Below are positions 3,867 through 29,945 of a stretch of DNA of 30,648 bases, piece by piece. Source of the stretch: a virus; the IMG/VR virus record IMGVR_UViG_3300025168_000401, positions 1 to 30,648 of that record, one strand, 5' to 3'. The notes beneath the pieces were generated by a model that saw only the letters and a list, made by a program, of their open reading frames with translations, was not told the DNA's origin and made no database searches. Positions within the stretch are counted from its first letter, which is position 1; every line of letters starts with the position of its first letter. The position numbers and the translations under genes are program-made.

Positions 3867-4535
3867 ATGAAAAAAATTAAATTTAAAGACTCAGATAATA
3901 ATTCCGATTGGGGAGTAATTACAACTAATAAATTTAAAGTAAATAAAAAAGCAAATAAAAGAGCATGGATAATTGATAATTTTTATGAAGATCCTGATGC
4001 TGTTAGGCAATATGCATTAGAACAAATGTATTGGGATAAGGGTCATGGAGGGGTTGGTTGGAGAACTAGAAAACAATTTGTATTTGATGGAGTTAAGGAA
4101 AAAATTGAAGAAACAATGGGTTGTAATATTACTAATTGGACTGATATTTATTCTATTTGTGGGGTATTCCAAAGTGGATTTTGTAGCGGAAATGTTCCAC
4201 CTTTAGTTTACCATGCTGATTCTCAACAATGGGCTGCTATGGTATTTCTTACACCAAGTGCACCATTTGAAACAGGTACTAAAGTTGTTGCAAATAAAAA
4301 ATCTAAAATATATCACACATCTCAAAGTGATGATATATTTGATTATTTCCCTCAACAAGAAACTTTTGTAGATGGAACCTTATATGAAGATGTTGATACA
4401 TTTGGAAATGTTTATAATAGAATGGTAATTTTTGATGGACAAACTATCCACAGCTCAATGGGATATTTTGGACATAGTATAGAAACCGGTAGATTATGGC
4501 AAATGTTCTTTTTTGATGCTGATTTGGCAAGATAA
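3867..4535 (+). CDS. DUF6445-like putative 2-oxoglutarate/Fe(II) oxygenase
   Basis: The opening 'AWIIDNFYEDPDAVRQYAL' (residues 33-51) is typical of the DUF6445 family, which has the double-stranded beta-helix fold of 2OG/Fe(II) dioxygenases. The expected metal ligands can be placed: H116 and D118 (YHAD) and H195 (DGQTIHSS), with R209 (GRLW) as candidate 2-oxoglutarate contact. Length (222 aa) fits a single domain. The substrate is unknown; hydroxylation of a sugar, protein side chain or base would all fit. It follows the glycosyltransferase by 30 bases and probably belongs to the same modification cassette. The start ATG has an A-rich leader. Confidence 0.7.
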   Translation: MKKIKFKDSDNNSDWGVITTNKFKVNKKANKRAWIIDNFYEDPDAVRQYALEQMYWDKGHGGVGWRTRKQFVFDGVKEKIEETMGCNITNWTDIYSICGVFQSGFCSGNVPPLVYHADSQQWAAMVFLTPSAPFETGTKVVANKKSKIYHTSQSDDIFDYFPQQETFVDGTLYEDVDTFGNVYNRMVIFDGQTIHSSMGYFGHSIETGRLWQMFFFDADLAR

Positions 4536-4557
4536 TAATTAATAAATAAATAATAAA

Positions 4558-4758
4558 ATGGATAAATTTCAAAAAGATTTTTTAGATAAAGTAGGTAGTG
4601 ATGAAATAATTAAAATTGCTAATATCCTAGATAGAGTAGGTTCTCAAGGAAAAATAGTAGAAGTAGTTTATTATGCCTTAACAACAATGTCTAAATCAGA
4701 TGGGAATATGTCTCCTCTTTTAGCATTACAAATTGCTGAGGAGGATTGGGATATATAA
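4558..4758 (+). CDS. Small hypothetical protein, 66 aa
   Basis: This short, mainly helical, acidic protein (MDKFQKDFLDKVGSDEI... ending EEDWDI) has no recognised domain, signal peptide or membrane segment. The start is preceded by aaataaataataaa, the standard A/T-rich context. Its stop codon TAA (4756-4758) directly abuts the RNA locus beginning about 4768, so its transcript could run into the tmRNA. Codon use matches its neighbours, and it fills the gap between the oxygenase gene and the RNA locus, so I regard it as real. Confidence 0.6.
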   Translation: MDKFQKDFLDKVGSDEIIKIANILDRVGSQGKIVEVVYYALTTMSKSDGNMSPLLALQIAEEDWDI

Positions 4759-4768
4759 TATTTATATT
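4759..4768 (+). promoter_or_regulatory. TATTTATATT element at the head of the tmRNA locus
   Basis: This is a close variant of the TATTTATAAT motif found before several gene groups in this window, placed directly after the preceding stop codon. If it were a -10 element, the transcript start would fall inside the P2-like strand (4768-4788). It may therefore instead be coincidental AT-rich sequence, or the RNA may be made by read-through and processing. Confidence 0.25.
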
Positions 4769-4828
4769 TGATCGTTTATAATTATATTAGCTACTTTTTG
4801 GACGTGGGTTCGATTCCCACCATCTCCA
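4768..4828 (+). ncRNA. tmRNA acceptor piece (P2 3' strand, T-arm, 3' acceptor strand)
   Basis: From the P2-like strand at 4768 it runs through TTTTTGGAC to the T-arm and ends at discriminator A4828. The bases at the CCA position read CTA (4829-4831), so a true CCA end is not encoded and would have to be added after cleavage. The 5' end of the mature piece cannot be fixed from sequence. Confidence 0.8.
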
Positions 4829-4850
4829 CTAAATATATACAATAAGATAC
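4829..4850 (+). other. tmRNA intervening segment (loop removed during processing)
   Basis: These 22 A/T-rich bases join the mature 3' end (A4828) to the mature 5' end (G4851). In permuted tmRNAs such a segment is cut out, with RNase P expected to make the 5' end at G4851 of the acceptor stem and tRNA 3' processing enzymes to trim the other side. Confidence 0.7.
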
Positions 4851-4908
4851 GGGGATGTACAGGTATTTGACATAAAGATAAGGGTATAATGAAGATCAAC
4901 GCATAACT

Positions 4909-4941
4909 GGCGAACAAGTTGAACTAGCGATGGCTGCTTAA
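4909..4941 (+). other. tmRNA tag reading frame, GEQVELAMAA-stop
   Basis: Resume codon GGC (4909-4911) opens ten codons followed by tandem TAA TAA. The tag starts with Gly-Glu, as I recall for Bacteroidetes tags, and ends in two alanines, the degron end recognised by Clp-type proteases. The methionine in AMAA is atypical compared with the common ALAA ending. The stop codons sit in the loop of a hairpin TGCTT (4935-4939)/AAGCA (4944-4948). Confidence 0.85.
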
Positions 4942-4948
4942 TAAAGCA

Positions 4949-4980
4949 CCCTAGCTAAACGGCAAATAGGGCAAGTCGTT
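4949..4980 (+). other. H-type pseudoknot downstream of the tmRNA tag
   Basis: Stem 1 is CCCTA (4949-4953) with TAGGG (4967-4971). Stem 2 pairs loop bases AACGGC (4958-4963) with GTCGTT (4975-4980), 6 bp with one G-U. This matches the place of PK2 in standard tmRNA. A competing helix GGGC (4969-4972)/GCCC (4984-4987) is possible. Confidence 0.7.
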
Positions 4981-5040
4981 AAAGCCCGGTGGTGGTGGAT
5001 CCCTTTGGGGATAATTTGGATTTTTTATATAAAATTATTA

Positions 5041-5050
5041 TATTTATACT
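5041..5050 (+). promoter_or_regulatory. TATTTATACT element before the gene at 5053
   Basis: A variant of the TATTTATAAT motif ends two bases before ATG 5053. If used as a promoter it would yield a leaderless message that starts after the ATG, so its role is doubtful here. Confidence 0.2.
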
Positions 5051-5052
5051 AT

Positions 5053-5475
5053 ATGATAAATTTAGATAATATTTTTCACTTATTTAGTTCTAATGATGAT
5101 TTAGATGGAATTGATAATAGCAATATCCATATTGACTTTAAAAACACCCCAATTTATTGGGTTGGAATGTATAAAAAATTAATATTAAATCATATAAATT
5201 TTAATAAAAAGATTACAAAGTTTTTTAAAAAGTCTGATGATGGGTTAGATTTAAATGATGTTCAAGAAGCTGGGGAGTTTGTTACATATAATAGAGCATG
5301 GTCATATATAACTAAAATTGATATTTCTAACAAAGAACATATAAAAGGAATAGATAATTATTCAGACAAACATTTAAATGCATCTTTAAAACTTGGTATA
5401 AATTTTTTCATAGAAACAGAAGAATATGAAAAATGTGCACATCTTCAAAAAATACTTAATTATCTCTCAGAATAA
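5053..5475 (+). CDS. Conserved-looking phage protein with a C-terminal UVR-like motif, 140 aa
   Basis: I start this gene at ATG 5053 rather than at an in-frame TTG (5005), because the longer form would read through the tmRNA 3' hairpin and add a hydrophobic, low-complexity N-terminus. The mature product has an acidic N-terminal part and a helical C-terminal half (EAGEFVTYNRAWSYITKID..., then ...FFIETEEYEKCAHLQKILNYL). The last segment resembles the short UVR helical hairpin seen in UvrB/UvrC and Clp-associated proteins, in which an 'EYExAAxLRD.I' pattern is typical; this is a weak similarity. The function is unknown. It lies between two copies of TGGATCCC. Confidence 0.6.
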   Translation: MINLDNIFHLFSSNDDLDGIDNSNIHIDFKNTPIYWVGMYKKLILNHINFNKKITKFFKKSDDGLDLNDVQEAGEFVTYNRAWSYITKIDISNKEHIKGIDNYSDKHLNASLKLGINFFIETEEYEKCAHLQKILNYLSE

Positions 5476-5628
5476 CTTGGATCCCCAAATTATTTTATAT
5501 ATCTTGGATATAAATTAATATTAGGTATTAAGGTACATATGTTAATATAAAGGATAAAATAATAAGAAATAAAGAGATTAAGGATATAGAGTACAATAGG
5601 TACCTAAGAATACACTAAAAAAATAATT

Positions 5629-5830: not shown

Positions 5831-6598
5831 ATGAAACTATCAGCAGAAAAAATACAAGCTAATTGGGTAGATTTTATGAGTAATATTAATACTTATATCT
5901 CATCTCCTCGTAAAGAACAATTGGTTAAATTCTATGAAACATATGCCGAGCGTATTATGCTTATGCCCGCTGCTCATAAAAAAGAATACCATTCAGCATT
6001 CCCAGGTGGGTATGTAGATCATGTTAATAGAGTAGTCCATGCAGCCTTATCAATGTCAGATGTTTGGAAATCTTTTGGATGTGATATGAATACCTTTACA
6101 ACTGAAGAATTAGTATTTTCAGCTATTAATCATGATTTAGGAAAAATAGGTGATGCTAATCATGAAGCATATATTCCTCAAACTGATAAATGGAGGAAAG
6201 ACAAATTAGGTGAGGATTATATGTTTAATAAAGAACTAGCATTTTCAGCGGTACCTGATAGAGGGTTATTTTTACTCCAAGATAATAATATTAAATATAC
6301 TTTTAATGAAATGGTAGCTATTCAAACACATGATGGGTTATATGATTCAGCTAATGATAAATATTTAAAAGGATGGATGCCAGAACAAAAACCACGTACT
6401 TCTTTACCTTTTATATTACATCAAGCTGATATGATGGCGGCTAGAATTGAATTTGAAATAGAATGGTTACCTAAATTTAAAAAATCAGATAATACAGATA
6501 AAAATAATTTTACAATTAAATCACCAAAATCAACTAAATCTAAAGCACTTAGTAATATATCAAGCCCAGGATTAAAAAATATGTTAGACAATTTATAA
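5831..6598 (+). CDS. HD-domain phosphohydrolase
   Basis: The 255-residue protein carries the complete metal-binding set of an HD-domain phosphohydrolase: H64 in GGYVDHV, the H101-D102 doublet in NHDLGK, H167 in QTHDG and D200 in HQADMMAARIE. Such enzymes cleave phosphate esters of nucleotides, cyclic dinucleotides or related compounds. The 'AFPGGYVDHVNRVVHAAL' helix and the 'ADMMAARIE' end are typical of HD proteins in T4-like marine phages. The last 40 residues are a polar, serine/lysine-rich tail. The substrate is unknown; nucleotide-pool adjustment or destruction of a signalling nucleotide would both suit a phage. The leader aaataaaagtt is identical to that before the DUF932 gene. Confidence 0.85.
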   Translation: MKLSAEKIQANWVDFMSNINTYISSPRKEQLVKFYETYAERIMLMPAAHKKEYHSAFPGGYVDHVNRVVHAALSMSDVWKSFGCDMNTFTTEELVFSAINHDLGKIGDANHEAYIPQTDKWRKDKLGEDYMFNKELAFSAVPDRGLFLLQDNNIKYTFNEMVAIQTHDGLYDSANDKYLKGWMPEQKPRTSLPFILHQADMMAARIEFEIEWLPKFKKSDNTDKNNFTIKSPKSTKSKALSNISSPGLKNMLDNL

Positions 6599-16743: not shown

Positions 16744-19700
16744 ATGGCAATACCAATTTCTTCATCTTTAATACAATTAAATGCTGAAACTTTTTTTCAA
16801 GAAGGATTTGAATTAAGTTTAGATGCTATTGTTCCATCAATAGAATTAACAGGATCCTTTACTGAATTTAAAAGTAAAACTCAATTTTATATATATGATT
16901 ATACTAAAACTATATTATATACAAATTTAGATTATGCAAATGATGGATCATTTTTATTACCTGAATTAGGTACTTCAACTTCAACAGAAACTACTTCTGT
17001 TTACAATCAGTTTGAATTGTCTCCAAATGAAGACATTTACAATCAAGGGTATTCTAATGGTAAATTTTATGCTGTTTATAATTTTATAGACTATGAATTA
17101 GGGTCAGAACTTTTAAATTCTCAACCAACACCTGATAATAGTGATATAGAATTTGAAGATGTTATATCTTATAGGGGTCATCCTTATTTTATTAAAGAAA
17201 TTTCTGGGGATAGGACAGAATTAAGAATTCAAAATAATTTTTTAACACCTCAACAGATAGAAACTTATTATAATGATTTTACAAACAAATTAAGTGCTAG
17301 ACAAGATGTTGATGAGTTTTATTTATCATTTACAGGTAATAGAAATTTTATAGGAATAAATAGTCAATTAGAAACTTCTTCTGAAACTACTACAACTTCA
17401 ATATTAATTAAATTATATCAACCTCTCCCTATAGATTTTGAATTAGAAGAAGAACTTCAAATAATTACAAAAGTAGGAGAAACTCAAGTTTTTGAAGTAG
17501 AATTTAATCCTAATTTAGAGTTTATAGATAATTTACTTTCATTAAAAGGTCCTAATTATAATATAGATATTAAAGATAAAGTTAATAATTCTACTAATTT
17601 TAAATCTTTAAAAGATTTAGTTAATACAAATAGTTCTCAATCTTATTATCAATTTAACTCTTTACAAGATCAAAAAGGTGTATTTTTAACCAAAAATTGG
17701 GGAGATTGGAGTGAATTTGTAAAATTTTCATCTGCTGAACAAAGATTAAATAATTTTTATGATAAGATGGTTTTAATTGAAGATTATGAGGCAGAATTGT
17801 CAAATCTTGAAACTATAACAGGAGCATCAAATGCTACCTTAAATTATTCTTCTAGTTATAATTCTGTTAGCAATAATATTAATAAAATTATTAGTAAATT
17901 TGATAGTTATGAATATTTTTTATATTACGTAACAGGATCTGAATCATGGCCTAAATATACATCAACATATCCTTACACAAACTATTCTGTAACAAGTTCA
18001 GCAGTATTAAATTGGTTTGGAAGTACAGATGAAGATAATACTTATTTTAATACAGGAAAGAATCAAATATATTCAGCTTCTAGATATGATGAAAATAATC
18101 AAGATTATTTATATTATTTAATACCTCCATATATTACTGACAATAGTAGTAATAACCAATATGTTAAGTTTGTAAACATGACAGGTCAAAGTTTTGATGA
18201 AATGTATCTTTATACTGAAGCTGTTGAGCAAGTTAGAAATACAAATTCAGGCTTAACAGGATCAGTTTTACCTTTAGGTATGGCTGATGATGTAATAGAA
18301 TCTTTAGGATTTGAAACATATGGTAATGACTTTAATTCTATAGGGTTTAATGTTAATGGGATAGGAGTATTTCCTGCAACAGGATCAGGTTTAGAATATA
18401 TTGATCGTTACATAGATATAGCTTCTGGCTCAGTTATAAATTATTATGATCAAGAACAATCTACTTTAGGATATGTTATAGCATTATCAGATCCTTCTTT
18501 TCCTTACCCTTTAGATAATGCAGCTCAAGAAATTTATAAAAGAATTTTCCATAATATGGTTTCTTTAGTAAAAAGAAAAGGAACTGTTACTGGATTAAGA
18601 CAATTAATTAATATATGGGGAGTTCCTAATACAATGCTTCGTATAAGTGAATTTGGGGGTAAAAATAAGGATGATAAAAATGATTATGATTTATGGATGA
18701 ATCGTTATAGTAATGCTTTAACTACTTATGATTATAAAAAAGGAGCATTATCACCTAGTGGATCAATAAGAATTCCATGGACACCCTTAACAGGTAATTA
18801 TTATGAAACAGCAGCTGTTCCTGATATAGCTGTTCCTGATTGCATTCAATTTAGATTTAAAGCAGCAGAACCTATAACAGCAACATCTAATTTTTCTCAA
18901 TCTTTATTAGTAAAAAATAGTCAAAATAGTGGTGGTTTCTCCGATTTTGGTATCACATTACACTACTCAGGATCACAATCAGGATCATATTCAGGATCTG
19001 TTTTACCAACAACTAGCCAATATGGAAGTTTATCTTTTAGAATATCCGCATCAGGTGCTGGTGGGTATAGAGAATCAACTCCTATATCATTACCATTTTT
19101 TAATGATGATTGGTGGTCTGTACAACTACAAAGAAAAACCCACATATCAGCATCAAATCAAGATAATACAGATAATGAGTTTGAATTAAGAGTAGCAAAT
19201 AATATATATGATGGTTATGATGGTAATCAAATAGGATTTCAAGGAGTATCAACACTTACAACCGTTGGAAATAATGGGGTTAATATAGCATGGAATAGAT
19301 TTGCTAATGATGCAGCCCTTCCTGCAGTAAGAGGTGTTATGTTAGGGGGATATATGTCTGCAACTGCTGACTATAATAAATTAATAGGACCAACATCAAT
19401 TGGAGTTGGTAGTACAGCTGGTATAGGTTTAGGTGATTCATTTTCAGGATCATTTCAAGAATTTAGATATTATAGAAGAGCATTATCATCATCTCAATTT
19501 AATGATTATGTAATGAATCCTGAATCCATTCAGGGTCATGAAGATTCAAATACTGGAGAGGGTAGTTCTTATGATTTATTATCTTTTAGACTACCTTTAG
19601 GAAATGAATTAGAATATACTGATGTTACAGGTTCTGCAGGGGTTAATTTAGCTGCAGTTGAGGATGGAGGGTCTATAAGTATTTTTAAATTTGGGGGAAC

Positions 19701-22700
19701 ACCTGATATAATTAACTTTCCATCATTTGGGGGAAGTGCTTTAGGATCATTACATCCTTCTTTAGTTAATAAAAAAGGAACATTATATACTTCATCATTT
19801 CTTTACATGACTGGTTATAATACTGGAAGTGGTTATACTATTGCTTACGCAGGAAGTGATGGTACATATACAACATCATTAACATCATCATACTTAGAAC
19901 CTAATACCCAAATAAATTACATGGACCAGCCAGCAGCTGGTATTAGAAACAGAATTAAAAATAAAATTCAAGTAATTGATGGTAATGAGTATGGTACTAC
20001 ACTGTCTCCTTTTAGAAGTATACAACAAGAATTTGAACAAAGTGCTAGTTATACAGAAGATTTAAATTCATTAGAAGTTGGATTTTCATTCCAAAATGAA
20101 ATAAATGATGACATAATTGCTACGTTTGGACATGGAGTAGTTTCTGATGCAATAGCAGACCCAAGATTTATATCAGAAAGCTCAGATAGATATCCTGAAT
20201 TAACTCGTATAGCAAATGATTACTTTAAAAAATATCAAGGTATTACTATTAATGATCCTAGATATACAGGATTACCTACTATAATAGAAAAAGAATATGA
20301 TTATAATAGATTAATAAAATTTTATGAAACCTCATTATTTAAGGCAATTAAAAATTATGTTCCTGCTCGTACTAGTTTAAGTACGGGAATTATCGTAAAA
20401 CAACATCTATTAGAACGAAATAAAACCGATGCAGTGATTGGTATGCATACACAAACTCCTGTAGCTAAGACGCCTGAAACCGGCTCTAATAGCTTTGGAG
20501 CTACTACTCAAACAGGATTTAATAGTATAATGTCGCAACAAAATCTTCTAATTACTTCAAGTATAGGAATGTATTCCTTAACAGGAAGTGCAGGAGGAAG
20601 TATTAATAAATATAATACACCAACTTCATCTTATACAGCATTTACTCAATCATATAATGTTTTAGATCCCTTTACTGGAGACACAGTTATAGTAAATACT
20701 CAAGAAGAATTTTATAATGGTGAGTATAGTGGTAGTAATGTACCAATGATTCCTGCTCAATATAATCCCTATAGAATATTCGCTGATGGAAATGATCAAA
20801 CACCAGACATATTTCCATCACCACCTTCTGTAAATTATTCCGCTGGTGGTGGAGTAAATCTACTTGGGGGTGGAGGTTCAGGTGATTTTGATAACATAAT
20901 TGCAGGAACTAACGCTATTACTTTTGATGTAGATAGTGCTTTAACTGTAGGTAGCTATTATTATACAGGTTCTTTTCAAAATTTAGTCCCGGGTCAACTA
21001 TATAATTTTTCAGCAAATGTAAATATTGTTGGTACCTTAGGTTCGGGTACAGTTACTTTCTTTCCTGCTCTTACACTGGGTGCTTATTCATTTTTTACTC
21101 CAAATTTTGCTTTTATAGCCCTAGATGTAAATGGAGCATCAACAGCAACAAATACTGGTGTTGCGTCTAGTGCATATACTTTTGATTTTATACCAACCAA
21201 TATAGCAGCAGGTACTGTTTATCAACCATCAGGAGAAGGTTTTGATAATGGGGGGTGGGGATTTGCATCATCTGGTGTTACTGGAAATTGTTCTATAGTC
21301 ATTACAAATGTTGTAATAACCCCTATAGGTGAATTAGGTCCTAAACATTTTTACGAAAGAGATGCTTTTACTATAGTACCATCAGCAAGTCAACTATTCC
21401 AAGCTTCTCCATATAATCCTCTTCTTAATAATATAAGTAGTAGTAGAAAAAACTCATTTTTATTTGACCAAGATTTTGATCCTGTATCACCTGGTTTTGA
21501 ATTAAAAGAAGGAATTCCAAATGATTATGCCTTAACTATTTCAGCTTCACAATTAGGGTGGGAAGGAACGGCTACCAATGAAAATTTATTAGAATACTCA
21601 GAGGTACCTGATAGTAATTATACTACAAAAGCAATAATAAACCCAAGATATATAGGATGTTTATTAGAAAGTGCAGATTATAATTTTTACACAGGAATAC
21701 CTTCTGAAAGTTTAGCAATTGGAAGATCTACAGATACAGGAATTACAGGATTAGCAAATCCACCATTTTTACTTACTCAAAATAAAGTTCAATACATTAA
21801 TGGTGAAACTGGTAGTTGGGTTGGAGATACTTCATTTGGTAAAAATGCAGTAATTAATAGAAATCCTATTAATATTGCTCATTTTAAATCTTCTTTAGAA
21901 AGTAAAGAATATTTTGGTACTACTACTTTTAATATAGATCAATTAATTCAAATTCCTTTTGAAGAAATATTAAGTGAACAATCTCCAATTATCACTTCAT
22001 CTTTAATAAATGGTAGTAATGAAAATTTAATAGCAATGTCTTCTACTTTTATGCCTGGAAGAGAAGCAACAATTATTTACAACCAATCAAATAAAACCTT
22101 TAATAATGTAGGGGGTACTATACTTAGTTATACAAATTTAGGTGTAGGAGCTAGAGAAATTAATGCTGGGGGAATTAATTTTATAGCATACCATTCTAAT
22201 CAAGTAAATTTAGATAATATATCACCTATTCAATATTATACTTTACCAATTTGGTACGATTATGATGTTGCTAAAGATTTTTTTAATGCATCAGATCTTC
22301 AAACAGTTAATAATCCAAATATAGAAATTACTCCTATGTCTCAATCACTTCTTTTAAGTGCTTCTTATATGGGATTTGGAGTTAATTATACTGCATATAC
22401 AATATCTCAATCATCTGTACTTAATGCTTCTAATATCAATAAGGTTTACTCATCAGGTAGTGTTATTTATTCTCCTTCTACACAAGAATTTTATAGTGAA
22501 TCCCCACAACCAATTTTATTATATACATCGAGTTTATTAGATGAAAATGGAAAATCACAAGGTATATTAAATTTAAGAGGCCCTAACCCAGGACAATTAC
22601 CTAGTTCTGTTTTTAATGACGCTTTAACTGCAGCTGGCGTAAATACCTATTCTATAAATGGGCCTTCATTAATGATGTTTAATTCCTGGAATAAATTAAT

Positions 22701-23940
22701 ACGTTTAGGAGATATATATCCTTTAGGTTCATCAACTACAACTAGTAGTGTATCTATTAGTAGAATGGGAGCTAGTGGTAATAGGGGAGCGTTTATAAAT
22801 CCTATAATAGCAAGCAGTGGAGATTTATTAGGTAGTGATGGGGGTACATTTCCCAATCCTCGAAATGGTTCTTTACCTTTATTAAGTTCAAATGAAAAAG
22901 AAAACCCAAATAATTATTATAGATGGAATATATCGGGATCATTATTACCTGAATATAGAGTAACAAATAATCAAATTTTGGATATTGAAGTAGGAGATGA
23001 AATAAGGGTCTCATATTCATATTTTGTAGATCCCTCTAATCCTAGTATTTTAGGAAAACAAGATCAGGATTTTACAGTTTTAGGATATAATATGATGCCT
23101 CCCAATATATGGACTACAAATTCAAATTTTAAAGCTAGTTCTACTGTTAAGTTTGAAATACAATCTACTATAGTTGAAGCATATAATACTAATATAACAC
23201 CTACAAGGGTTACATCACAAGGACCTCTTCCAGCAGATGGTTATTTTAGCTTTACAGAATTATGGAAAAGATATAGATCAGCTTTTAATAATAATGTAAC
23301 CTTTAACTTTTCATCTGTTGATGAAGATGAAGATTATATGTATACTAGTGGTTCCATTACAGCACTTAATACTCATTCTGTTGTAGATGGAACTGGAATA
23401 ATTGGAATAACAGCATCATTGTTTAATAGAACTAATGTAACCAATTTAGCACCCGCTGATGTTTGTTGGAATATGTCTACTAATTACATATTAAATTTGA
23501 GTTCTAGTATAAAGACTAATGAACTTTCATCTGATTCTACTGGATCTGTATTATATAATTCATGTTCACTATCACCTATGTTAATTTCAAATCAGGACCA
23601 AACCTCTAAAACATCATTTGCCCCTCTAGATCCTGGATTTTTATTTGATAGACTAGTAGTAACTCCTAACCCAAATGATTTAGAAAATAAAATACCAGAA
23701 GGAAAAATATATGCTATGACTTTAAGGAAAAGAGTAGAAGCAGATGATAGAGTTATATTAAATGCAAACCAACCATCAGGATCAGCAGGTGCTTTAACGT
23801 TATCTGGTGATGGTTATTTAATACCTAATGATATAACTGAAGTACAGCAAAGAAATGTTCAAAAAATAATTAATAAATTAAAATCTGAAAATGTATTTAC
23901 ACAAGACAGTCCTGACAGTTTAGGAGGTTCGAATGCTTAA
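16744..23940 (+). CDS. Giant virion structural protein, 2398 aa, with LamG-like domain
   Basis: The largest gene here takes nearly a quarter of the window. The N-terminal ~670 residues include FSSAEQRLNNFYDKMVLIEDYE, a coiled-coil-like stretch, and FDSYEYFLYYVTGSESWPK, as in large structural proteins of T4-like marine phages in my memory. Residues ~690-950 look like a LamG/concanavalin-type lectin sandwich (CIQFRFKAAE..., DDWWSVQLQRKTH..., GSFQEFRYYRRALS). A Gly-rich hinge (about 1364-1384) leads to a beta-sandwich-like segment (~1385-1529). The remainder is Ser/Thr/Asn-rich beta sequence. A baseplate wedge or peripheral adhesin (gp7/gp10-like position) is inferred from gene order. No signal peptide or catalytic motif is seen. 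Confidence 0.75.
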   Translation: MAIPISSSLIQLNAETFFQEGFELSLDAIVPSIELTGSFTEFKSKTQFYIYDYTKTILYTNLDYANDGSFLLPELGTSTSTETTSVYNQFELSPNEDIYNQGYSNGKFYAVYNFIDYELGSELLNSQPTPDNSDIEFEDVISYRGHPYFIKEISGDRTELRIQNNFLTPQQIETYYNDFTNKLSARQDVDEFYLSFTGNRNFIGINSQLETSSETTTTSILIKLYQPLPIDFELEEELQIITKVGETQVFEVEFNPNLEFIDNLLSLKGPNYNIDIKDKVNNSTNFKSLKDLVNTNSSQSYYQFNSLQDQKGVFLTKNWGDWSEFVKFSSAEQRLNNFYDKMVLIEDYEAELSNLETITGASNATLNYSSSYNSVSNNINKIISKFDSYEYFLYYVTGSESWPKYTSTYPYTNYSVTSSAVLNWFGSTDEDNTYFNTGKNQIYSASRYDENNQDYLYYLIPPYITDNSSNNQYVKFVNMTGQSFDEMYLYTEAVEQVRNTNSGLTGSVLPLGMADDVIESLGFETYGNDFNSIGFNVNGIGVFPATGSGLEYIDRYIDIASGSVINYYDQEQSTLGYVIALSDPSFPYPLDNAAQEIYKRIFHNMVSLVKRKGTVTGLRQLINIWGVPNTMLRISEFGGKNKDDKNDYDLWMNRYSNALTTYDYKKGALSPSGSIRIPWTPLTGNYYETAAVPDIAVPDCIQFRFKAAEPITATSNFSQSLLVKNSQNSGGFSDFGITLHYSGSQSGSYSGSVLPTTSQYGSLSFRISASGAGGYRESTPISLPFFNDDWWSVQLQRKTHISASNQDNTDNEFELRVANNIYDGYDGNQIGFQGVSTLTTVGNNGVNIAWNRFANDAALPAVRGVMLGGYMSATADYNKLIGPTSIGVGSTAGIGLGDSFSGSFQEFRYYRRALSSSQFNDYVMNPESIQGHEDSNTGEGSSYDLLSFRLPLGNELEYTDVTGSAGVNLAAVEDGGSISIFKFGGTPDIINFPSFGGSALGSLHPSLVNKKGTLYTSSFLYMTGYNTGSGYTIAYAGSDGTYTTSLTSSYLEPNTQINYMDQPAAGIRNRIKNKIQVIDGNEYGTTLSPFRSIQQEFEQSASYTEDLNSLEVGFSFQNEINDDIIATFGHGVVSDAIADPRFISESSDRYPELTRIANDYFKKYQGITINDPRYTGLPTIIEKEYDYNRLIKFYETSLFKAIKNYVPARTSLSTGIIVKQHLLERNKTDAVIGMHTQTPVAKTPETGSNSFGATTQTGFNSIMSQQNLLITSSIGMYSLTGSAGGSINKYNTPTSSYTAFTQSYNVLDPFTGDTVIVNTQEEFYNGEYSGSNVPMIPAQYNPYRIFADGNDQTPDIFPSPPSVNYSAGGGVNLLGGGGSGDFDNIIAGTNAITFDVDSALTVGSYYYTGSFQNLVPGQLYNFSANVNIVGTLGSGTVTFFPALTLGAYSFFTPNFAFIALDVNGASTATNTGVASSAYTFDFIPTNIAAGTVYQPSGEGFDNGGWGFASSGVTGNCSIVITNVVITPIGELGPKHFYERDAFTIVPSASQLFQASPYNPLLNNISSSRKNSFLFDQDFDPVSPGFELKEGIPNDYALTISASQLGWEGTATNENLLEYSEVPDSNYTTKAIINPRYIGCLLESADYNFYTGIPSESLAIGRSTDTGITGLANPPFLLTQNKVQYINGETGSWVGDTSFGKNAVINRNPINIAHFKSSLESKEYFGTTTFNIDQLIQIPFEEILSEQSPIITSSLINGSNENLIAMSSTFMPGREATIIYNQSNKTFNNVGGTILSYTNLGVGAREINAGGINFIAYHSNQVNLDNISPIQYYTLPIWYDYDVAKDFFNASDLQTVNNPNIEITPMSQSLLLSASYMGFGVNYTAYTISQSSVLNASNINKVYSSGSVIYSPSTQEFYSESPQPILLYTSSLLDENGKSQGILNLRGPNPGQLPSSVFNDALTAAGVNTYSINGPSLMMFNSWNKLIRLGDIYPLGSSTTTSSVSISRMGASGNRGAFINPIIASSGDLLGSDGGTFPNPRNGSLPLLSSNEKENPNNYYRWNISGSLLPEYRVTNNQILDIEVGDEIRVSYSYFVDPSNPSILGKQDQDFTVLGYNMMPPNIWTTNSNFKASSTVKFEIQSTIVEAYNTNITPTRVTSQGPLPADGYFSFTELWKRYRSAFNNNVTFNFSSVDEDEDYMYTSGSITALNTHSVVDGTGIIGITASLFNRTNVTNLAPADVCWNMSTNYILNLSSSIKTNELSSDSTGSVLYNSCSLSPMLISNQDQTSKTSFAPLDPGFLFDRLVVTPNPNDLENKIPEGKIYAMTLRKRVEADDRVILNANQPSGSAGALTLSGDGYLIPNDITEVQQRNVQKIINKLKSENVFTQDSPDSLGGSNA

Positions 23941-25747: not shown

Positions 25748-26935
25748 ATGTCAGCGTACAAACAATTTACAACAAAAGACATTGTAATAACCCCCTTTTC
25801 AGCTAATAAAGGATTTAGCTTTACAGGAAATGCTATGACGGCATCTAATGTAGGAATTGAAGTTTATTTTGGCACTCAACCCCCAGCTAATAAATTAATA
25901 TTTGAAACTTCCCAACAAAGTTTATGGCAATCTAATCAAGCATCTTCTGTTTCAGGATCTCAAAACGCTACAGGATTTGTAAATAAATTAAATACAAATT
26001 CTGTTTATTCAAGTGCAATGCAACTTTATTACTCCAACTATTTTGGAAGTATGTCTGGTAGTTTTGCAGCTACTTCAAGTTTATTATATGGTTTAGAAGG
26101 TCCTCAAAATAATTCATTTGCTGAATATAATAATCTTAATTTAGGCATTGAAGGATCAAATAATATACCTATTGGGGCAGTAAAAAGCCCCCAATATGAT
26201 AATTATTTATCAAGTACTATTACCCAAACTAGAGCGGCTTTAATTGGAGAAAATATATTAGTTGAATCTGCTCTGGATAATAATTATATAACAGCTATTT
26301 CTATTCCATCAAAATTATGGGGTAGTAATATTGAACCTCAAAGTTTTAATTTAGTTTGGAATAATTCAGGAGCAACAGATACAGCAACTCTTTGGGATGA
26401 TGGAAATGGTGATATTAGATTTAGATGGGTAAATTCTGCTACGGGTATTAAAGTACATGATCAATATTGTGGTAATATAATTTATGAACATGGGATGGCT
26501 ATTCTAACACCTATAAGCCAATCAGAAGCTATTGCAGGTGTATATCAAACCCAAGTCTCAGCATTAGGAGTATACGTTTTAGGAGGTCAAAATGGTTATA
26601 ATGGTGCATTTATAAATCAATTAGATTATCTTACTGTTGGATGGTCTTCATCAGTTACCTTATATGAACATCAATATAAATGTACTGTAAGAGAAAATGA
26701 ATTTGGTTATTCTCTAAACCCTTCATTATTATCTGGTAGCCAAGTAAATGTTCCTTTAGGAACTAATAATGTTTATAAAGATTTTGCAACAGGATCATAT
26801 TTTAGTCCTTATATTACAACTGTAGGGTTATATGACAATGATCAAAATTTATTAGCTATTGGAAAATTATCGGTTCCTACTAAAGTTCCAATGAATTCTG
26901 ACTTAGAAATCCAAGTATCATTTGATTCTTTATAA
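25748..26935 (+). CDS. Virion structural protein, 395 aa, paralog of the previous gene
   Basis: ATG 25748 is chosen; an ATG at 25744 is in another frame. The C-terminal ~78 residues (FGYSLNPSLLSGS..., YITTVGLYDNDQNLLAIGKLSVPTK..., DLEIQVSFDSL) correspond to the same module in the previous gene. The N-terminal two-thirds differ. The middle includes IPIGAVKSPQYDNYLSSTITQTRAALIG and AIAGVYQTQVSALGVYVLGG, with typical beta-strand alternation. It is likely another fibre or decoration component. Its stop overlaps the start of the GIY-YIG gene (TAATG), although the latter is not a virion gene. Confidence 0.65.
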   Translation: MSAYKQFTTKDIVITPFSANKGFSFTGNAMTASNVGIEVYFGTQPPANKLIFETSQQSLWQSNQASSVSGSQNATGFVNKLNTNSVYSSAMQLYYSNYFGSMSGSFAATSSLLYGLEGPQNNSFAEYNNLNLGIEGSNNIPIGAVKSPQYDNYLSSTITQTRAALIGENILVESALDNNYITAISIPSKLWGSNIEPQSFNLVWNNSGATDTATLWDDGNGDIRFRWVNSATGIKVHDQYCGNIIYEHGMAILTPISQSEAIAGVYQTQVSALGVYVLGGQNGYNGAFINQLDYLTVGWSSSVTLYEHQYKCTVRENEFGYSLNPSLLSGSQVNVPLGTNNVYKDFATGSYFSPYITTVGLYDNDQNLLAIGKLSVPTKVPMNSDLEIQVSFDSL

Positions 26936-27390
26936 TGTCCTGGATATATAATAAAGAAAAAATAACTGACATTAATCAGTTAAAAAAACAAGTTATGGGG
27001 TTTGTTTATAGAATAGACCACATCCCCTCAGGCAAATCTTACATAGGTAAAAAATTTCTTGTGTTTACTCGTAAACAAAAATTAGGTAAAAAGGAATTAA
27101 AAATATTTGAAGGTCAAAAAGGTAGACCACCTAAATTTAAAGTAGTTTCTAAAGAATCAGATTGGAAAACATATTGGAGTTCAAATAAACAATTATTAGA
27201 ATTAGTTAAAAATGAACCCGAAAAAAACTTTCAACGTATGATTCTTCATTTTGCTAATAGTAAAAAAGAATTAACTTATTTTGAAACTAAATATCAATTT
27301 TTATATGAAGTTTTAGAAAAACCAAATGAATTTTTTAATGATAATATTTTAGGGAAATTCTTCACACGTGACTTTGGAGATACAAATTAG
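26935..27390 (+). CDS. SegE-like GIY-YIG family protein (putative endonuclease)
   Basis: GFVYRIDHIPSGKSYIGKK (residues 22-40) is the GIY-YIG signature, with GFVY in place of GIY and YIG at 36-38. Downstream pieces KKLGKKELKIFEGQ-like, ESDWKTYWSSNKQLLELVK, MILHFANSKKELTYFETKYQFLYEVL and DNILGKFFTRDF match the SegE-type putative endonuclease family of T4-like phages. GIY-YIG domains cut DNA using a metal ion; whether this small, single-domain form is a mobile homing enzyme or a domesticated phage nuclease is open. The gene begins by overlapping the last virion gene stop and precedes the primase by 18 bases. Confidence 0.85.
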   Translation: MSWIYNKEKITDINQLKKQVMGFVYRIDHIPSGKSYIGKKFLVFTRKQKLGKKELKIFEGQKGRPPKFKVVSKESDWKTYWSSNKQLLELVKNEPEKNFQRMILHFANSKKELTYFETKYQFLYEVLEKPNEFFNDNILGKFFTRDFGDTN

Positions 27391-29144: not shown

Positions 29145-29945
29145 ATGATAAGTTTAGTTCAAATTTTAAAAGAAGCAATAGGAATGCCAAAAGCAATTAT
29201 ATTAGCAGGTGCACCGGGAGCAGGTAAAGGATATATATTAAGAGGTTTAGATTTAAGTGATTTAAAAGTTTTAAATTTAGACAATCGTTATATGAGTTTA
29301 TTAAAAAAAGCAAATGTATCTTTAGATTTAAAAAATGCAACACCTGAAGAAAGAAGTAAAGGGGCAAAAGCTATGGCTCAAGCAAATAAAGAATTTAAGG
29401 GTGATATAGAGGACACAATTAAAGGTAAAGAATCATTTATATTAGATGGTACAGCAGCTTCATTTAATAATACTATTAAATTAAAAGATGAATTAGAAGA
29501 AGCAGGGTATGAAGTATTTATGCTTTATGTTTACACTGATTTAGAACGTTCATTATCTCAAAACCAAAATCGATATGAAAAATCAGATGGAGAAGATAGA
29601 AGTTTAGCCCCAGCTATTGTAATGCGTACTTGGAAAGGTGTAACTAATAATTTACCTAAATATGCTAGTTTATTTGGTAATAATTTTGTAGCAGTTGCTA
29701 ATACTTTAGAAGGTACTAGAATAACAGATATAAATAAAATTATTAAAAAATATCTTGACCCTTTTAAACCACAAGACACTTTACCTAAATCACCAGCCCA
29801 ACAAAAACGATCTGATGAAAGAAAAGCTAAAGATAAAGAAGAAATTCAAGCTATGTTAGATGATGATTTTATCTATGATGTAATAGAATACACAATGTCT
29901 AAGGAAGAAGCACAAATAAGAATAGAACAATTTTTACGTTCATGA
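29145..29945 (+). CDS. P-loop kinase, zeta-toxin/polynucleotide-kinase-like
   Basis: A Walker A P-loop GAPGAGKG at residues 22-29 follows a short helical extension (SLVQILKEAIGMPKAIILA). Next come LNLDNRYMSLL, FILDGTAASFNN, LKDELEEAGYEVFMLYVYTDLERSLSQNQNR and VMRTWKGVTNNLP. The 'LDG(T)A' strand and 'YV.TDLE..L.RN..R' section are typical of zeta-toxin and polynucleotide-kinase-type small-molecule kinases. The substrate cannot be told: UDP-sugars, RNA/DNA 5' ends or nucleosides are options. The C-terminal 60 residues are charged and lysine-rich (SPAQQKRSDERKAKDKEE), then helical. The stop overlaps the next gene's ATG (ATGA). Confidence 0.75.
   Translation: MISLVQILKEAIGMPKAIILAGAPGAGKGYILRGLDLSDLKVLNLDNRYMSLLKKANVSLDLKNATPEERSKGAKAMAQANKEFKGDIEDTIKGKESFILDGTAASFNNTIKLKDELEEAGYEVFMLYVYTDLERSLSQNQNRYEKSDGEDRSLAPAIVMRTWKGVTNNLPKYASLFGNNFVAVANTLEGTRITDINKIIKKYLDPFKPQDTLPKSPAQQKRSDERKAKDKEEIQAMLDDDFIYDVIEYTMSKEEAQIRIEQFLRS

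Follow-up and report, generated by a model that had tools for sequence, protein, structure and literature searches.

A conserved, phage-borne gene for a circularly permuted tmRNA in a marine virus of bacteria

tmRNA is the RNA that frees stuck ribosomes, and a short stretch between two genes of a marine virus of bacteria raises the question of whether a phage carries such an RNA in two pieces and in permuted order, to which type it belongs and what it would do for the virus. We analyzed a linear viral record of 30,648 bases (the window, meaning the whole stretch of DNA studied; a linear record is often a fragment) and located a circularly permuted tmRNA gene at 4770–4987 on the plus strand, placed between a 66-codon gene (4558–4758) and a gene starting near 5053. 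ARAGORN called a permuted tmRNA at 4739–5032 with the tag GEQVELAMAA followed by two stops. An Rfam scan, with E-values based on the whole window against 4,227 Rfam families, returned RF04321 (tmRNA_permuted) at 4770–4941 with 65.7 bits and an E-value of 9.5e-11 (cut-off 47), the sole gathering-level Rfam match within the window. In a control run RF04321 rose above its cut-off in 1 of 14 named genomes, and it also scored the standard-tmRNA control genomes, but under the cut-off. A first-pass annotation made from the letters had proposed a permuted tmRNA at this place, and ARAGORN, RF04321 and the covariation described below all back the proposal. The locus is a real, conserved, phage-borne two-piece tmRNA gene, the function of which we infer further below.

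The elements of the gene and its usual downstream neighbour are as follows:
4770–4799, plus strand: P2 strand of the 3' (acceptor) piece and 5' end of the gene, from RNAalifold (38 sequences), pair counts and the RF04321 start at 4770; pairs 4770–4773/4894–4897, 4781–4788/4883–4890 and 4792–4796/4874–4880
4804–4820, plus strand: T-arm, stem 4804–4808/4816–4820, loop TTCGATT
4821–4828, plus strand: acceptor 3' strand CATCTCC (4821–4827) and discriminator A4828
4829–4850, plus strand: intervening segment of 22 nt, removal expected; 16–23 nt in 38 sequences
4851–4857, plus strand: acceptor 5' strand GGGGATG, starting with G1 and carrying G3-U70 for alanyl-tRNA synthetase
4858–4897, plus strand: remaining tRNA-like domain (GGTATTTGACA) and P2 strand of the 5' piece
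4904–4905, plus strand: U and A at −5 and −4 of the resume codon, counterpart of E. coli tmRNA U85 A86
4909–4944, plus strand: tag frame GEQVELAMAA (4909–4938) and two stop codons (4939–4944)
4936–4947, plus strand: small hairpin over the stop codon, GCT 4936–4938 with AGC 4945–4947
4959–4987, plus strand: H-type pseudoknot, S1 4959–4963/4975–4979, S2 4969–4972/4984–4987
4999–5012, plus strand: weak terminator-like hairpin; 2 found on both strands of 4400–5600 versus 0.4 expected
5831–6598, plus strand: phosphohydrolase-like gene (PHROG), usual downstream neighbour

The T-arm, acceptor stem, 22-nt spacer and tag frame all lie where they had been placed before, and the acceptor strands CATCTCC and GGGGATG pair over 7 of 7 positions as claimed, including G3-U70; we take a G-U at the third acceptor pair to be the alanine identity pair of tmRNA. 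The helix resembling P2 that had been suggested to join the halves (4770–4796 with 4874–4897) covaries in 38 sequences. The extent described earlier was incomplete, as the pseudoknot and the weak terminator-like hairpin lie beyond its elements. In the window A4828 is followed by CTA, so that CCA is not encoded, and CCA is encoded in 8 of 41 distinct sequences. The resume codon is GGC (Gly); the A at −4 corresponds to A86 of E. coli tmRNA, described as the main determinant of frame in the excerpt of PMC2481249. For the hairpin over the stop codon (alignment columns 179–181/189–191), the innermost pair is CG in 19 sequences, UA in 10 and GC in 2, with 7 partnerless. The folding energy of the terminator was no better than shuffles in the window and in one relative (L006).

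We next asked whether such an arrangement could be a chance resemblance. Partners able to form 7 bp with the acceptor 3' strand occur at 10 of 30,642 plus-strand positions, about 0.02 per 60 nt, and the single such partner within 4701–5200 lies at 4851, the expected place. These counts, together with the RF04321 score and the covariation, rule out chance resemblance. The minimum free energy of 4764–4950 alone was no better than that of shuffles (z −0.13), so that it is homology and covariation, rather than the energy of the fold, which support the tmRNA. Upstream signals were also considered: a Bacteroidota −7 promoter (motif TAnnTTTG) at 4763–4770 was discarded, since the P2 strand, which starts at 4770, would overlap with it, and a sigma-70 scan gave 14 sites versus 9.5 expected.

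To follow the structure among relatives, we collected 41 distinct window-type sequences, window included, leaving out one cut sequence (L249). The alignment used for pairing (A2) holds 38 of them, again with the window, and omits L192 and L212, which carry a pseudoknot insert, and L233, which has a different tag. RNAalifold on A2 predicted the inter-piece helix P2 with compensatory changes. Over the 26 pairs of P2, T-stem and pseudoknot S1, a structure derived from A2 itself, which favours it in the test, 98.9% of cells were paired versus 87.5% in shuffles, and both sides had changed in 108 cells versus 30. The covariation score was 0.386 versus 0.167 shuffled and at most 0.054 once partners were slid by 1–3 columns, a slide that lowered pairing to 39–52%. 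The number of further pair types in this 26-pair test was not exceptional, being reached by 96 of 500 shuffles. The acceptor stem showed 7 of 7 pairs in 38/38 sequences; several of its letters and the resume codon were preset by the search pattern, so that their invariance in pattern-found sequences is no evidence, and the one acceptor pair left free on both sides was AU in 24, GC in 13 and GU in 1. Pseudoknot S2 shows seven sequence variants, each with its exact 4-bp complement in the loop (38 of 38 sequences; shuffles reached a mean of 9.2 and a maximum of 19 of 38).

The reading frame is conserved likewise. A 10-codon tag frame with a stop is present in 40 of the 41 distinct sequences, the remaining one (L233) having 11 codons, and all 40 ten-codon frames end in AMAA. 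Among these 40, codons 4 and 8 are invariant, codons 7, 9 and 10 show synonymous changes only, and residues 2, 3, 5 and 6 differ in amino acid; the search pattern had preset codon 1 and the larger part of codon 2. The stop itself varies between TAA, TAG and TGA. Judged from these substitutions, the pattern is that of selection on a frame with its AMAA end kept. According to the excerpt of PMC11915505, 10 residues is the commonest tag length.

How widely the gene is distributed was assessed from its neighbours and from the RNA. Similarity to the upstream protein (3867–4535) recovered 62 related viral loci, independently of any RNA pattern, and ARAGORN called a permuted tmRNA in 14 of them; a further observation is that the sequence of one locus (L013) ends inside the tmRNA. 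Homologues of both 3867–4535 and the downstream protein 5053–5475 were present in 18 loci, 14 with the RNA and four without it (L005, L022, L024 and L025). Alignment with L005, L022 and L024 shows an empty site between the same two genes; the neighbour protein of L005 is 92% identical, and L025 lacks the 66-codon gene too. As the tmRNA gene is missing in these four loci and in the whole record of Immutovirus immuto, it is dispensable. In the relatives that carry it, the acceptor and P2 pairing, the loss of which would have spoken against the first-pass annotation, is conserved. A more distant relative, the L058 contig, matched RF04321 with 41.2 bits, under the cut-off, and no match to RF04321 was obtained in Immutovirus immuto or in Microcystis phage Mel-JY01, each scanned over its whole record.

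Scanning viral contigs with a general permuted-tmRNA pattern returned at least 119 stretches, and ARAGORN called a permuted tmRNA in 68 of 80 loci among the matches listed. The pattern with a GGC resume codon returned 50 stretches from viral contigs, 48 of window type and two (L186, L208) of another type with the tag GKVINLFSAPVRLAA. The gene neighbourhood is largely fixed: in all 33 of the 48 window-type GGC-scan loci with at least 4.5 kb of downstream sequence, a homologue of the phosphohydrolase-like gene follows the tmRNA on the same strand at 1.0–4.7 kb. It is also present in L015, L016 and L018, giving 36 of 37 carrier loci, the sole exception being L267, the full contig of L225, which over 11.1 kb downstream showed no homologue of any of 25 window proteins tried. 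Proteins of the distant carriers are mostly about 30–50% identical to those of the window. The tmRNA gene thus probably belonged to this phage group from early on, with losses in some of its members, and from the gene content of L267 it appears to have moved, or persisted, outside the group at least once.

This exceptional contig (CALBOT010000027.1; L225, L267) was also the only hit when 84,980 species genomes were scanned with the exact pattern, which would miss diverged copies, and it is filed in a bin of the archaeon Nitrosopelagicus. Four of its seven proteins tried match PHROG, including a CobS-like protein, an endonuclease and an HNH endonuclease, and the contig is likely to be phage DNA within an archaeal bin. 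A type 9 secretion signal on a protein beside the L225 gene, which would have pointed to Bacteroidota, was dropped since no NCBIfam or Pfam match was obtained. Among 50,697 phage records, the matches (best 20 of 38, 30 of 106 and 60 of 121) fell in the T-arm region with one exception, phage CRBO14223, showing a 21-base identity in the tag region at an E-value of 0.8; the best coverage among the matches listed was 22%. The L188 stretch, taken together with its flanks, also drew matches from nine Riemerella phage records.

Which phage and host the gene resides in was approached through the window proteins. Baseplate wedge proteins similar to gp25 and gp6 point to a contractile-tail phage; it had earlier been labelled T4-like, but the nearest isolate is an Immutovirus and not T4 itself. 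Flavobacterium phage immuto was the best isolate for 3 of 3 proteins tried (38–45% identical), with Mel-JY01 a close second for two of them, and within a 40-kb stretch of immuto there are homologues of 13 of 25 window genes, at 26–57% identity. Near-absence of Shine-Dalgarno motifs is a Bacteroidota trait. Counting ORFs of at least 120 codons, with the frequency before any ATG given alongside, we found the motif at 1 of 25 starts in the window (11% before any ATG), 2 of 29 in immuto (16%) and 8 of 26 in Mel-JY01 (5%). Pooling the window with its near relatives gave 3 of 130 (about 2%), whereas distant carriers such as L188–L224 gave 61 of 263 (about 23%). The host of the window phage is likely to belong to the Bacteroidota, judging by its nearest isolate and start signals; the previously proposed Bacteroidetes host is thus likely for the window but may not extend to the distant carriers, which differ. 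Since these carriers show the motif at 61 of 263 starts and the L188 baseplate protein shares more identity with Mel-JY01 (46.4%) than with immuto (41.6%), the phage family taken together may have hosts of more than one kind, and the occurrence of the same tmRNA type at about 23% and about 2% Shine-Dalgarno starts suggests a host change in the phage group.

We then compared the RNA with the known permuted types. The alpha_tmRNA model (RF01849) gave 23.3 bits against a cut-off of 50, which the control Caulobacter passes, and beta_tmRNA (RF01850) gave 46.1 against 84, which no named control genome passes and which two plainly beta-type phage loci exceed (L067 and L071, 107.8 and 116.9 bits). Both models match only the tRNA-like core of the window tmRNA, and an alpha or beta subtype was rejected on score. 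For cyano_tmRNA (RF01851) the score was 43.2 against 70, a weak test as the control Synechococcus elongatus also remained below. The standard model RF00023 (cut-off 47) gave 42.4 bits, truncated on the 5' side, and separately 34.4 bits; a standard-order tmRNA elsewhere in the window, which would have told against a permuted gene, was not found at the cut-off. The window RNA shares with RF04321 permuted tmRNA its piece order, tRNA-like domain, G3-U70, short intervening segment and tag frame. Unlike most other permuted phage copies, the tag of which starts with Ala, it resumes on GGC (Gly), a codon also found in the permuted phage tmRNAs L233, L251, L186, L261 and cr50_1. G resume codons were seen besides in L208 and L265, and the tags of this set (L233, L251, L186, L208, L261, L265) are GENKTEMAMAA, GENKVTMRMAA, GKVINLFSAPVRLAA and GKVINLHEVNLLETAA.

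Published work places these differences. In the excerpts available, gene-permuted tmRNA is described from three bacterial lineages (PMC9004378, PMC11915505), RF04321 is built from alpha, beta and cyano sequences and 79 distinct phage tmRNAs are given (PMC11915505). Ten phages with ssrA were given in 2014, plus the RNA of DS6A (PMC4131195, in part), and another account reports Melnitz and counts 53 two-piece RNAs among 133 distinct phage tmRNA structures, 50 being of marine or aquatic origin (PMC9004378, in part). The marine phage Melnitz resembles our case in its permuted ssrA, aquatic origin and contractile tail, and its tmRNA, according to the same excerpt, has an alphaproteobacterial sequence and is linked to a glutamine riboswitch (PMC9004378); in contrast, the window RNA is not of alpha type, and no riboswitch reaches the Rfam cut-off in the window. 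The crAss-like phage cr50_1 (MT774375, annotated SsrA) is likewise permuted, with a G resume codon and 60.3 bits on RF04321, but has a much longer intervening segment, another tag (GNNFVTDYTAIGA, ARAGORN) and 82% identity to the window over 45 bases only. In cr50_1 (L002, MT774375.1) a tRNA-like gene overlaps the tmRNA end, and a RAGATH-22 RNA lies nearby. crAss-like phages infect Bacteroidales.

The novelty claimed earlier consequently narrows to the subtype: two-piece phage tmRNAs had been published (PMC9004378, in part), and cr50_1 was already annotated and is recognised by RF04321. By its model scores, what is new is an RF04321 member that fits none of the three bacterial clade models well, the cyano test being weak. 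A search of the literature on two-piece and permuted tmRNA in phages, crAss-like ones included, and in Bacteroidetes, at the level of titles and abstract openings among the matches listed, gave no description of this subtype.

A set of one-piece phage tmRNAs (L231, L246, L255, L252 and L259) differs from the window in having standard gene order and a tag frame of 33–34 residues beginning GENSY. It shares with the window the resume-codon context TAACTGGCGAA, which was the search criterion, and TTGAC in the tRNA-like domain, and three members (L231, L246, L255) exceed the RF00023 cut-off. These frames are far above the commonest tag length of 10 residues. The L231 frame from its GGC resume codon reads GENSYSVVKLTPIGAESHSSALPLQSVELALAA; where ARAGORN calls members of this group, it gives the inner part only. 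In L245 a long GGC frame is present, and no T-arm was found in the available sequence. That both gene orders share a near-identical resume context, bearing in mind that this context was the search criterion, fits permutation within the group. Scans of viral contigs for other forms returned phage tmRNAs and chance matches, none assignable to a Bacteroidota chromosome. The GE- tag and TTTGACA of the window tmRNA presumably resemble those of Bacteroidota tmRNA, and a literature search for Bacteroidota tags of this kind found none. An independent origin of the window subtype is possible. We tentatively entertain, while doubting it somewhat, the fuller proposal of a fourth permuted lineage that is separate from alpha, beta and cyano, would have arisen from one-piece Bacteroidota-type tmRNA, would be confined to phages and inherited with the phage family across hosts differing in translation-start signals, and has no known bacterial source.

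What the gene does for the phage is best answered by ribosome rescue. Very probably, what lies here is a circularly permuted ssrA gene carried by the phage, its most likely use being to rescue ribosomes during infection. Expression, cleavage, charging, tagging and the benefit to the phage we infer along the following lines. One transcript would carry the 3' piece (P2 strand, T-arm and acceptor 3' strand), the 22-nt spacer and the 5' piece with acceptor 5' strand, tag frame and pseudoknot. Cleavage ahead of G4851 would be the work of host RNase P; the 3' end would be processed back to A4828 and finished by the CCA-adding enzyme of the host, and pairing in the acceptor stem and P2 would hold the two pieces together. 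The RNA would be charged with alanine through G3-U70, enter stalled ribosomes with SmpB, which is assumed to come from the host, add GEQVELAMAA after the alanine and allow release at UAA. Such rescue would be of use in infection, a phase in which the breakdown of mRNA yields many transcripts that lack a stop codon.

Several other uses have to be weighed against this reading. The RNA might act as a decoy that sequesters SmpB or alanyl-tRNA synthetase, or that acts in competition with the host tmRNA, and so damps host trans-translation, a role proposed for the TLD-only RNA of mycobacteriophage DS6A; such a phage RNA has been described, and a similar molecule inhibits tmRNA (PMC4131195, PMC11915505, both in part). 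A decoy, however, needs no tag frame, and here frame, length, AMAA end and pseudoknot are all kept under divergence, which makes such a role improbable. Compatible with rescue is a rewired tagging in which the phage tag would direct proteins to another fate, sparing them or selectively destroying them. Bacteroidota host-type tags read GE..YALAA, and the window tag is unlike these; tag residues 2, 3, 5 and 6 moreover vary around a constant AMAA. An ordinary ssrA degron has an -MAA-like end, which the window tag still resembles, so that we consider rewiring rather unlikely. Selective degradation of host proteins has been suggested for the Melnitz tmRNA (PMC9004378, in part).

It is also conceivable that the locus is an inert fragment of host ssrA captured by imprecise excision, as host ssrA fragments are known in prophages (PMC9004378, in part) and the gene is absent in some relatives. 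However, selection is needed to account for the compensatory changes seen among 38 distinct sequences and for a frame that is conserved in 40; the same neighbour gene stands in 36 of 37 loci, and no host source is known from the exact-pattern scan of 84,980 species genomes, with its one contig that is probably phage. We hold an inert fragment to be extremely improbable and retain ribosome rescue as the preferred reading.

A distinct subtype that occurs in viral contigs and hardly in species genomes would bring the question of how split RNA genes arise and spread within reach of testing, and it raises the prospect that phages carry such rearrangements or even create them. Public viral contigs sample the family well; with its clear covariation and its conserved tag, it allows one to ask directly why a phage should supply ribosome rescue of its own. 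Judging by the Nitrosopelagicus case, permuted tmRNAs reported from archaeal bins could in some instances lie on phage contigs.

Elsewhere in the window, 16744–23940 encodes a protein of 2398 residues with no PHROG match, 26935–27390 a SegE-type GIY-YIG endonuclease (Pfam PF19835), a possible homing enzyme, and 29145–29945 a zeta-toxin-like kinase (Pfam PF06414).
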